Shown here piece by piece: positions 31,010 through 37,642 of a stretch of DNA of 64,000 bases. Made by a program: the position numbers and the translations under genes. This DNA is from Flexivirga caeni. GTDB lineage: Bacteria > Actinomycetota > Actinomycetes > Actinomycetales > Dermatophilaceae. The notes beneath the pieces are model-generated. The model saw nothing but the letters and a program-made list of their open reading frames with translations. It had not been told where the DNA came from and did not search any database. Where the stretch lies: contig NZ_RJJQ01000004.1 of NCBI RefSeq assembly GCF_003724155.1, positions 180,526 through 244,525 of the forward strand. Direction: 5' to 3'. How positions within the stretch are numbered: position 1 is the stretch's first letter; each line of letters opens with the position of its first letter.

Positions 31010-31588
31010 GTGACTGGCGAGGCACCCTGGCTGATCGTCGGTCTCGGCAACCCCGGGCCCCAGTACGCCGGCAACCGGCACAACGTGGGTGCGATGGTGA
31101 TCGATCGTATGGCGCGCGATGCCGGCACCTCGTTGCGCGCGCACAAGGCGGGTGCGCTGGCAGCGTCGATCCGCCTCGCCGGGCAGCCGGTCGTCATCGC
31201 GACGCCGACGAGCTACATGAACGAGTCCGGCGGGCCAGTCGCCGGGCTGATGCGCTTCTTCAAGGCGCCGCTCGAGCGGCTGATCGTCGTCCATGACGAG
31301 CTGGACATCGAGTTCGCGACGCTGCGGCTGAAGCGCAGCGGCGGCGAAGGCGGGCACAACGGACTGAAGTCGATCAGCAAATCCGTGGGCAGCAAGGACT
31401 ATCTGCGGGTGCGGGTCGGCATCGGGCGGCCGCCGGGCCGGATGGACCCCGCGGCATACGTGCTGAAGAACTTCACCGCGACCGAGCGGGCGGAGCTGGA
31501 GTTCCTCGTGCCGGAAGCCGCCGAGGCTGCGGAGCTGTTGACCGTCAAGCCGCTGAACGACGTACAGAACGTCGTGCACGCGCGGTAG
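31010..31588 (+). CDS. pth: Peptidyl-tRNA hydrolase
   Basis: Releases tRNA from aborted peptidyl-tRNA; 192 residues. [20 protein letters not shown] contains the catalytic His, and [13 protein letters not shown] and [20 protein letters not shown] the other conserved residues. GTG 31010 is preferred, with GGACGAGAA just upstream; GTG 30995 is in frame too. The long upstream extension of the frame shadows the ABC remnant on the other strand. Confidence 0.96.
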
Positions 31589-31614
31589 GCGGCCGGTACA
31601 ACTACAGTGACCGC

Positions 31615-32070
31615 GTGCGCCGGGTAGCTGTCGGATTGCTCTGGGTCGTGGTCGTGCTCGGCGTCCTGATCGGCGTCGGTATGGCGATCGGCGGACTGGT
31701 TTCCGGCGTGGCAGCGTCTCACCGCGCACCGCACGAGACCGCGACGGCCACGGGCATGGTCACCACTGCCGGCAAGTGCGCGGGCCGTGCCACGTCCTAC
31801 GGTCGGGCCGTCTTCACCGCGGGCGGCTCGCCCTACACCGCGACGGTCGCCTGCAACACCCACAAGGGGGAGCGGGTTGCCGTGAAGTACAACCCGGCGG
31901 ATCCGGCTCACAACAACGACAGGGAGAACTCCGTGCACCACTTCGTGATCGCGGGGATCGGCGCTCTGCTCGCGCTGGTCGTAGCGGGCAGGGCCGCTCC
32001 CGCACTGCTGCGCGAGCGGCGCCGCAGCATGTCGGGCAAGCGCCGGTCGCCGCGGCACGGCCGCGCATGA
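31615..32070 (+). CDS. Small membrane protein, possibly DUF3592-like
   Basis: 151 residues with two membrane helices (LLWVVVVLGVLIGVGMAIGG and HFVIAGIGALLALVVAG) flanking an extracytoplasmic domain with two Cys (GKCAGRATSYG, VACNTHKG). VAVKYNPADPAHN resembles the end of DUF3592 domains. Basic C-terminus (RERRRSMSGKRRSPRHGR). It follows pth by 26 bases. Confidence 0.6.
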   Translation: MRRVAVGLLWVVVVLGVLIGVGMAIGGLVSGVAASHRAPHETATATGMVTTAGKCAGRATSYGRAVFTAGGSPYTATVACNTHKGERVAVKYNPADPAHNNDRENSVHHFVIAGIGALLALVVAGRAAPALLRERRRSMSGKRRSPRHGRA

Positions 32071-32099
32071 ATGTCACGGGCACCACTTAGGCTGGCCGT

Positions 32100-33263
32100 A
32101 TGACCGAGAGCCCTGCGCTGGGGCGCATTCACATCGAGGGGTTTGCGTCCATCGCTGACCTCACCCTCGACGTGTCCTCCCCGGTCACGGTCCTCATCGG
32201 GCCGAACGGCAGCGGCAAGTCGAACATCGTGACGGCAATCGAGCTGATCGCCAAAGTGGTCGACGGCGGTTTGCAAGATCACGTGGCGCGCAGGGGCGGG
32301 CTGGACCGGATGCTGCACGAGTCCGCGGCGGGCACCGCGAGCCAGATCGTCCTCGAGATCCGCAATGCGCCGGTGAGTGGCGAGCTGGAAAGCGGCTACC
32401 GCGCGGTCGTCTGGCCGGACGACACCGGAGAAGCTCTCCTCAGGGAGCAACTGCTCACCCGTGATGCAGCCAAGTTCGCCGTGGACCACCCGTACGACAA
32501 GGTGCTGGCAACCGCGGCGCGCGAGAGCCGCCTTGCGCAGACTTCTCGAACGGGCGGGGACCCCAGGCTGCGCGCGTTCGCCAGACACGTACTGGATGTC
32601 GTGGGGTCCTGCCGTGTCTATCACTTCGACGACGTGAGTTCGGATGCTCCACCCAAGCGGGCTTCGACGATCGGCGATGATGTCCAGTTGCGGTCGGATG
32701 CCGGCAACATTGCCGCCTATCTCCATCACGTTCGGGACTCGGATCCCTACGCGTACGACCGGATCGTGGGCGCGATACGCACCGTCACTCCGTTCTTCGG
32801 CGATTTCGTCCTCGAACCAACTGTCCCTCGTGGGGATTCGATCCGCCTCCGGTGGAGGCAGCGTGGACTCGAACGTGTCTTCACGGCGGACGAAATCAGC
32901 GATGGGACACTGCGATTCATCTGCTTGGCGACGCTGTTGCTCGGACCGGAGAGACCCGCAACGATCATCCTGGACGAGCCGGAGCTCGGCTTGCATCCCT
33001 TTGCGATCCATCAACTTGCGGCGATGGTGCGCAGCGCCTCGATCGACCGGCATCGTGTCATCCTTGCGACGCAATCGGTGACGCTGCTTTCACAGTTCAC
33101 GATCGAGGAGACCGCCGTCGTCCAGCGCGGGGACGACGGGACGACTGCTGAGCGCGTCGATCCGGACTCCTTGGCCGCCTTTCTCGACGATTTCTCTCTC
33201 GGTGCGATGTGGGAGATGAATCTGCTGGGAGGGCGACCCCGACTCGGGGAGCCATCGGCATGA
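32100..33263 (+). CDS. AAA-family ATPase (AAA_21, OLD/RecF-like), first gene of a two-gene cassette
   Basis: 387 residues, cytoplasmic. Walker A is GPNGSGKSN (residues 34-42) and Walker B TIILDEPELGLHP (residues 288-300, with D292 and E293). DEISDGTLRFICLATLLL before it is the ABC-like signature region, and ATQSVTLLSQF the switch region. The short insert between the Walker motifs, without a long coiled coil, fits COG4637/AAA_21 proteins rather than SMC or RecN. The stop overlaps the DUF4276 gene (ATGA), so the two are made together. ATPase plus TOPRIM-type partners are known from OLD-family and PARIS defence systems. A defence role here is inference. Confidence 0.85.
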   Translation: MTESPALGRIHIEGFASIADLTLDVSSPVTVLIGPNGSGKSNIVTAIELIAKVVDGGLQDHVARRGGLDRMLHESAAGTASQIVLEIRNAPVSGELESGYRAVVWPDDTGEALLREQLLTRDAAKFAVDHPYDKVLATAARESRLAQTSRTGGDPRLRAFARHVLDVVGSCRVYHFDDVSSDAPPKRASTIGDDVQLRSDAGNIAAYLHHVRDSDPYAYDRIVGAIRTVTPFFGDFVLEPTVPRGDSIRLRWRQRGLERVFTADEISDGTLRFICLATLLLGPERPATIILDEPELGLHPFAIHQLAAMVRSASIDRHRVILATQSVTLLSQFTIEETAVVQRGDDGTTAERVDPDSLAAFLDDFSLGAMWEMNLLGGRPRLGEPSA

Positions 33264-33913
33264 GGCAGACCGTCATCGTTGTCGAGGGCCAGTCGGAAGA
33301 AGCATTCGTCACCCAGGTTCTTGCTCCCCGCGCGGCGGACGCGGGGGTCTATCTGACGCCGATCGTGGTCAAGCACCTTCATGGTGGAGCTGTCGTGGGG
33401 AGGGGCGGTGGGAGCTGGAAGCACTACGAGAAGCTGCTGGCTCCGTTGATCCACCAGACCCACTGGGATCGGGTTGGTCTGATGTGCGACTTCTATGGCT
33501 ATCCACCAGCAGCCCCGGGGGCGGATTGCCCAGGGGCGACGCCGCATGCTCGCAGGGAAGCCATCCACGCGTCATTGCGGCAGGCCTTCCCCGACCCGCG
33601 CTTTCGTCCATGCGTGGTCCTGCACGAATTTGAGACGCTTGTCCTGGCTGCGCTGCGAGCCGATCGAGCGCTGTTCCCCCAGACGCCCGAACTCGATCAG
33701 CTCGTCACAGACCTTGATGGATTCGATGACCTCGAGCTGGTGAACGACTCGGTAGCGACGAGCCCGTCGCATCGGATTGCCACGGCATGGCCGGAGTACC
33801 AGAAGGCGATTGATGGCATCCGCATCCTGACCCGAGCGCCCTTGTCAAGGGTGCTTTCCGAGTGCGCTACCTTCCACGGGTGGTGGGCGGAACTGGTCAG
33901 AACCGCCCCGTAA
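33260..33913 (+). CDS. DUF4276 (TOPRIM-like) protein, second gene of the ATPase cassette
   Basis: 217 residues. The N-terminal strand VIVVEGQSEEAFV puts Glu9 where TOPRIM proteins have their first acid. LMCDFYGYP (D77) and HEFETLVLA (H122, E123, E125) are conserved in DUF4276. Such domains are predicted nucleases or effectors acting with an AAA ATPase. No membrane segment or signal is present. Third-position T and A look more frequent than in neighbouring housekeeping genes, by eye only, which would fit transfer. A hairpin with a T run follows at 33965. Confidence 0.82.
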   Translation: MRQTVIVVEGQSEEAFVTQVLAPRAADAGVYLTPIVVKHLHGGAVVGRGGGSWKHYEKLLAPLIHQTHWDRVGLMCDFYGYPPAAPGADCPGATPHARREAIHASLRQAFPDPRFRPCVVLHEFETLVLAALRADRALFPQTPELDQLVTDLDGFDDLELVNDSVATSPSHRIATAWPEYQKAIDGIRILTRAPLSRVLSECATFHGWWAELVRTAP

Positions 33914-33964
33914 CTCCGGGGCCGTACGGCTCTCAGCGACGGCGACTAGAATCAGCTGTGTCAA

Positions 33965-33994
33965 CCCCGTCTCGCCTGCGAACGGGGCCCTTTT
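33965..33994 (+). terminator. Hairpin terminator between the ATPase cassette and mfd
   Basis: CCCCGT (33965-33970) pairs with ACGGGG (33982-33987) around an 11-base loop, then CCCTTTT. It most likely ends the cassette transcript. A TAGAAT at 33950-33955 could be a -10 box for mfd, in which case the hairpin would lie in the mfd leader. Confidence 0.6.
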
Positions 33995-34036
33995 GCGTGT
34001 CCGCCCCGGCGGTCCCGATGCCCGAGGAGCTCACCG

Positions 34037-37642
<3,606 letters not shown>

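Follow-up and report, generated by a model that had tools for sequence, protein, structure and literature searches.

An ATPase–DUF4276 gene pair in Flexivirga caeni

The stretch of the Flexivirga caeni genome analysed here (the window: 64,000 nucleotides of NZ_RJJQ01000004.1, positions 180,526 to 244,525 of the forward strand) contains a pair of overlapping open reading frames (ORFs) that encode an ATPase and a DUF4276 protein (Table 1). The pair is located between two genes that an initial annotation of this DNA had named pth and mfd, names that we take over; the gene called mfd, downstream of the pair, is a 1201-amino-acid ORF. Pfam bears out the two family assignments of that annotation, with E-values of 1.5e-28 for AAA_21 (ATPase) and 3.2e-29 for DUF4276 (partner). 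The ATPase has an intact Walker A motif, GPNGSGKS at residues 34-41, and an intact Walker B motif, IILDE at residues 289-293, as claimed initially. The DUF4276 gene starts at the ATG at 33260, on the stop codon of the ATPase; the mechanically called ORF begins earlier, at 33209.

Both proteins closely match models of one catalogued system in PADLOC-DB 2.0.0, our reference for HEC-01. The ATPase matches the HEC-01A model PDLC04175 at E = 4.9e-118 (residues 5-380 of 387), and the DUF4276 protein matches the HEC-01B model PDLC04188 at E = 2.7e-56 (residues 1-213 of 217). In the partner protein, DUF4276 is the only family that reaches the Pfam cut-off, and the PADLOC matches at E ≤ 1 are five HEC-01B models. 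The gene layout is that of HEC-01 as well: the two genes adjoin on the same strand, with an ATGA overlap. By homology, gene order and adjacency, the pair is thus a copy of a candidate defence system that is already in the catalogue, HEC-01. HEC stands for Hma-embedded candidate (PMC12111858), and HEC-01 has entered the defence literature (PMC12724379). Our literature search, which did not extend to the preprint defining HEC-01, found no report of HEC-01 being tested and none on DUF4276.

The G+C content of the two genes (0.64 and 0.63) is below that of the window (0.69), with third-position values equally low in other window genes. An Rfam scan of 31400-34200 gave no match, so that no RNA component was seen, and a search for sigma-70-like promoters in the pair region found none.

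Table 1. Features of the ATPase–DUF4276 locus (window coordinates; counts refer to aligned sequences of the respective protein; Bp OLD is the OLD-family protein compared in the text)
Feature	Position	Strand	Conservation or remark
ABC-type (OLD/RecF-like) ATPase, HEC-01A, 387 amino acids	32100..33263	+	
Walker A GPNGSGKSN, residues 34-42	32199..32225	+	G34, N36, G37, G39, K40 in 68/68
SDG, residues 267-269, which we take to be an ABC-signature-like motif	32898..32906	+	S and D 67/68, G 68/68
Walker B IILDE, residues 289-293	32964..32978	+	D292 67/68, E293 68/68
ATGA, DUF4276 start on ATPase stop	33260..33263	+	sequence
DUF4276 protein, HEC-01B, 217 amino acids, predicted TOPRIM-like nuclease	33260..33913	+	
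E9 and E13 in the VEGQSEE strand: TOPRIM-type glutamate and second acidic residue	33284..33298	+	73/73; spacing equal to Bp OLD E400/E404
D77-F-Y79, degenerate DxD	33488..33496	+	D77 73/73; position 79: Y 66, F 6, D 1
HEFE, residues 122-125	33623..33634	+	H, E123 and E125 in 73/73; spacing like Bp OLD T506/E508
K182, possible catalytic lysine	33803..33805	+	K in 70/73
Hairpin with T run ahead of mfd, not part of the cassette	33965..33995	+	four congeners without DUF4276, with variation
DUF3592-like ORF, 151 amino acids, same slot, not thought part of the pair	31615..32070	+	sub-threshold matches

Conservation of the pairing and genomic context

A scan of genome contigs from 84,980 species returned at least 584 matching stretches, at least 495 of which encode a DUF4276 relative; the best 80 of these, that is, the nearest relatives, and one viral contig made up a set of 81 loci. 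The ATPase gene lies directly upstream of the DUF4276 gene, on the same strand, in 80 of the 81, although in two it is cut by the contig end. The sole exception (L090) has no ATPase match in its upstream DNA, which amounts to only about 400 bases. Because the best 80 loci are the nearest relatives, distant members of the family (PF14103) were examined as well: in 12 of 12, three of which score below the Pfam cut-off, the ATPase frame ends at, or overlaps, the start of the DUF4276 frame. The start-stop overlap pointed out in the initial annotation recurs in 50 of 78 related pairs (ATGA in 41, GTGA in 7 and TTGA in 2); two of the sequences used, DUF4276 from L039 and the ATPase from L050, read past a stop, but the count of 50 is independent of L050, and L039 shifts it by at most 1. 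Protein distances of the ATPase and DUF4276 are correlated (r = 0.80 over 79 pairs, with a shuffled maximum of 0.13), and 44 of the 79 pairs have the same nearest neighbour, both values including the common descent of the hosts. Starting from the ATPase, a threshold of E ≤ 1e-30 gave 15 plasmid records, and of 10 opened (5 were left out), nine encode DUF4276 downstream. Across 396 genomes of the phylum, with four candidates scored per genome, the ATPase was detected at the same threshold in two, F. caeni and G143, both of which encode DUF4276. The partnership of the two proteins, the co-occurrence of which the initial annotation had proposed to check, is real. An ATPase without the effector is nevertheless tolerated, because a Tolypothrix plasmid (L197:3474-5420) carries an intact ATPase gene next to a DUF4276 gene broken off after about 20 codons.

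The pair is patchily distributed and is not fixed at this locus among relatives. DUF4276 is encoded in 4 of the 58 genomes scanned, namely, F. caeni and three genomes of the same order with more distant forms. The HEC-01 loci examined come from many phyla. This distribution bears on the possibility that the pair functions in DNA repair or recombination, in the manner of RecF or RecN, without a link to phages. The fold of the ATPase is indeed nearest to the SMC and Rad50 heads, and names such as RecF or SMC occur in databases. A repair function nevertheless appears quite improbable, given that DUF4276 has no match in four congeners and is absent from 31 other genomes of the same family (four of these less than 90% complete), that PF14103 is present at E ≤ 0.001 in only 10 of the 396 genomes of the phylum, F. 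caeni included, and that the pair elsewhere lies within restriction-like operons.

The copy in F. caeni is not in a defence island but stands alone between pth and mfd. When the 28 genes nearest to it were compared with PADLOC (the window has 53 called genes, counting the pair), there were only weak matches, to mad2 (5e-20) and Cas3 (2e-13 and 4e-12), and no methylase or Hma model was matched at E ≤ 1e-10. Embedding with Hma is the origin of the name HEC and is understood as not being required of each copy; the copy in F. caeni lacks such embedding, whereas some relatives that share both proteins, the gene order and the adjacency are embedded in methylase-helicase operons. In the Aeromonas media plasmid pMC64A, a WYL regulator and then an SNF2 helicase precede the ATPase and DUF4276, and a DNA methyltransferase follows. 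The order in A. veronii pHX3 is methyltransferase, ATPase, DUF4276 and helicase; in an Ideonella plasmid, the ATPase and DUF4276 come after a helicase and then a methyltransferase and are followed by Mrr. Two genome contigs (L093 and L104) have the order methylase, small ORF, pair and SNF2 helicase, and a third (L081) has helicase, pair and methylase. The other seven opened plasmid copies show no helicase-methylase operon within the stretch viewed. Ten neighbour proteins were hand-picked as likely helicases or methylases for a family check, and of these, seven, beside the pair in four loci, are of the helicase, methylase or restriction type, one resembles a type ISP methylase and two are ordinary.

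A broader survey covered 204 proteins, encoded by the nearest two genes to either side in 51 loci with three callable genes per side (57 submitted, of the 81). At E ≤ 1e-100 in PADLOC, one half of the survey matched type III and IIG restriction enzymes, a type III methylase, PDC-M19B and HEC-03B, and the other half matched helicases of the BrxH type, type I and III methylases, DrmD, DarG and type I specificity. At 1e-10, 5 of 104 survey proteins matched type I specificity. Among 105 control proteins from 19 arbitrary stretches of relatives, PsyrT was the sole match at 1e-100, with DpdF at 1.7e-94 and generic models such as mad3, in four proteins, among the weaker ones. The PADLOC and Pfam tallies count members per family, with 25 families shown, and are not an exact count of distinct defence proteins. 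Such matches are in excess near the pair compared with the control, but the control comes from one order, whereas the loci are drawn from many phyla. A number of the matched families are helicases or methylases of a generic kind, and the majority of the neighbours are ordinary genes. Taken together, the homology to HEC-01, the patchy presence, the tight pairing and the helicase-methylase and restriction operons elsewhere support the initial proposal of a candidate defence module; a defence island around the local copy is not supported.

The pair could also be a toxin-antitoxin-like plasmid maintenance unit, in which the ATPase would silence a DUF4276 nuclease toxin and selection would mainly favour the keeping of mobile DNA, with defence secondary. 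Mobility typing of the 15 plasmid records with the ATPase gave 4 conjugative and 2 mobilizable ones, in pTR11_2 the pair is next to VapBC, the two genes are tightly coupled, and the Tolypothrix plasmid has the intact ATPase beside the truncated effector. However, genome contigs with ordinary neighbours are also frequent, the methylase-helicase operons speak for defence, and PARIS itself blurs the ideas of toxin-antitoxin and defence; we consider maintenance as the main function unlikely. Carriage of the pair by phages was rejected: 50,697 phage records gave no match to DUF4276 at E ≤ 1e-3 or to the ATPase at E ≤ 1e-15, and IMG/VR yielded one DUF4276 locus (L112). When viral sequences were scanned again, this time with the ATPase profile, 12 loci were returned, none with DUF4276 by profile, and blastn of the pair DNA against E. 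coli genomes gave no match.

The slot that the pair occupies, after pth (31589-33940), is variable, as follows from its differing contents in the four congeners without DUF4276: a 136-amino-acid ORF, VOC-like by eye, in G001 (L023), a similar ORF, again by eye, in G002 (L024), and only about 200 bases in the remaining two (L025 and L026). The distance from pth to mfd in these four genomes is about 200 to 550 bases, so the insertion between near neighbours described initially stands. Its extent does not: the DUF3592-like ORF is also absent from the slot in the congeners, and the insert, with its right edge near 33940, where similarity to G001 resumes, is hence longer than the pair alone. Elsewhere, the slot contains an APH-like gene (L030) or a small hydrophobic ORF (L031), both named by eye. 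The DUF3592-like ORF was rejected as a third gene of the system, there being no relative in the other HEC-01 loci examined. It has a sub-threshold match to the Rv1733c family (2.5e-4) and a relative on another contig of G001 (L028:2912-3328; 50% identity over 105 aligned amino acids).

The terminator-like hairpin that the initial annotation assigned to the cassette belongs instead to the pth-mfd spacer, because it lies beyond the edge of the insert and is present before mfd in the congeners that lack DUF4276, nearly unchanged in two and in an altered form, its T run shortened, in the other two. It folds no better than shuffled sequences (z = -0.72), and the single terminator-like site found in the region compares with a mean of 1.0 in shuffles. 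A TAGAAT box directly 5' of the hairpin and T run (33945-34000), also present in varied forms in the four congeners, may be part, with the hairpin, of a leader or attenuator of mfd.

Predicted fold and acidic site of the DUF4276 protein

The structure model of the DUF4276 protein is confident (predicted local distance difference test score 92.5) and resembles OLD-family TOPRIM domains, with predicted strands at residues 2-8, 30-36 and 71-77 and helices between them. In the model, E9 follows strand beta-1 and G50 follows beta-2, the positions of the TOPRIM glutamate and glycine; G50 is invariant but lies in a low-confidence loop (block mean 55). E9, E13, D77, H122, E123, E125, E159 and R172 are identical in all 73 aligned sequences, so the site is under selection. 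E9 and E13 lie in the VEGQSEE strand singled out initially, and an acidic site is conserved; with this, and with a pair that is not fixed in relatives, neither of the two outcomes named initially as a refutation came about. The two-metal site of Bp OLD (E400, E404, D455, D457, T506, E508 and K562) can be compared, by order and spacing only, with E9, E13, D77, Y79 (at the D457 position), E123/E125 and K182; by these measures, E9, E13, D77 and E125 of the modelled protein fit the Bp OLD site. K182, which is not kept in most of 12 distant DUF4276 members, may correspond to K562.

The initial reading of an OLD- or PARIS-like layout with a TOPRIM-like DUF4276 is supported by the model and the conserved acidic residues, with two reservations. 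With the DUF4276 model, the best match of Foldseek alone is only at E = 8.6e-3, and the second aspartate of the DxD motif expected after beta-3 is replaced by tyrosine or phenylalanine in 72 of the 73 sequences. Because this motif is incomplete here, we call the protein TOPRIM-like; 8 of the 12 distant PF14103 members retain DxD. A sequence search for solved DUF4276 relatives returned none at E ≤ 1 and one match, to a BLM helicase chain, at E = 1.6. The replaced aspartate and the loss of K182 in most distant members could mean that DUF4276 is no longer catalytic and has only a structural or binding role beside the ATPase, but with the eight invariant residues indicating a site under selection, we regard this as improbable.

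Separately, stretches of about 190 amino acids that carry TOPRIM motifs of the OLD kind (VEG or LEG and a D four positions further along, C/YDxxE, DLEDEL and GRK) were observed, mostly in genomes of 5.5-10.7 Mb (L147, L149, L151, L152, L156-L160 and L162-L164); the alignment of OLD-like sequences took 20 of 27 usable sequences.

Relation to known systems and a possible mode of action

PARIS, which consists of the AriA ATPase and the AriB TOPRIM protein, has been proposed as class 4 of OLD (PMC10568477); in PARIS, the AriA sensor is reported to release the AriB nuclease, with cleavage of host tRNA (PMC12409363). The pair described here would share this layout, with a separate ABC ATPase gene beside a gene for a predicted TOPRIM-like protein, but is not PARIS, because the effector is not AriB (DUF4435). 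As the initial annotation had recognised, the partner is DUF4276: it has no AriB match in PADLOC at E ≤ 1 and no DUF4435 match in Pfam. DUF4435 was not found in 197 genomes of the class either. In OLD classes 1-3, the ATPase and TOPRIM domains are parts of one polypeptide, whereas the pair consists of two ORFs with a stop and restart, and where the OLD nucleases and GajA of Gabija have DxD, the DUF4276 protein of F. caeni has DxY. The GajB helicase of Gabija is not among the 28 window neighbours (PADLOC, E ≤ 1e-10). Likewise, the AbiLii partner of AbiL is missing, with no AbiLii match for DUF4276 at E ≤ 1, and the ATPase matches AbiLi only weakly (PADLOC, 1.7e-18). HEC-04 (IbfA) also combines an ABC ATPase with TOPRIM but is a single fused protein and a different HEC family. 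Antiphage activity has been reported for this fused protein (PMC12111858), and activity has been reported for several HECs, HEC-06 among them (PMC12988326). According to a 2026 survey, OLD-ABC ATPases linked to TOPRIM are a theme that recurs (PMC12839542). Strictly, therefore, the pair is neither PARIS nor OLD nor Gabija, but it would work like PARIS or like a split OLD.

We estimate at roughly 60% the probability that the pair is a HEC-01 copy consisting of an ABC-type ATPase and a predicted stand-alone OLD-type TOPRIM-like nuclease that likely act jointly as infection sensor and effector. Under this scheme, translational coupling through the ATGA overlap would supply matched amounts of the two proteins, and the ATPase would dimerise on ATP and hold or recruit the DUF4276 protein. 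A phage trigger would alter the state of the ATPase such that the nuclease, its metals held by E9, E13, D77 and E125, would be freed or aligned and would cut nucleic acid. The substrate would be either host tRNA, the target in PARIS, or DNA, the target in OLD and Gabija, and the outcome would be abortive infection or loss of phage DNA. That the ATPase senses infection and controls the DUF4276 nuclease is, together with the substrate, trigger and outcome, inferred by analogy with these systems. The pair likely helps the bacterium to resist phages.

More tentatively, DUF4276 might form a branch of its own among the effectors derived from TOPRIM, governed by a dedicated ABC ATPase and with the metal site remodelled from the classic E-DxD to E-E-D-Y-HExE-E. 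The pair would then represent, next to PARIS, one more immune lineage in which ATPase and nuclease are split. Such a lineage would have a nucleic acid target of its own, would extend across many bacterial phyla and into at least one archaeal genome, and would function either alone or within methylase-helicase defence operons. The addition made here is modest, namely, the conserved active-site pattern of DUF4276 and the change from DxD to DxY. With it, HEC-01 gains a concrete candidate mechanism, comprising putative catalytic residues in DUF4276 and a putative sensor ATPase and, if this proves true, the ATPase-plus-TOPRIM logic of PARIS and Gabija would extend to a further widespread family, represented in F. 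caeni by a compact native pair.
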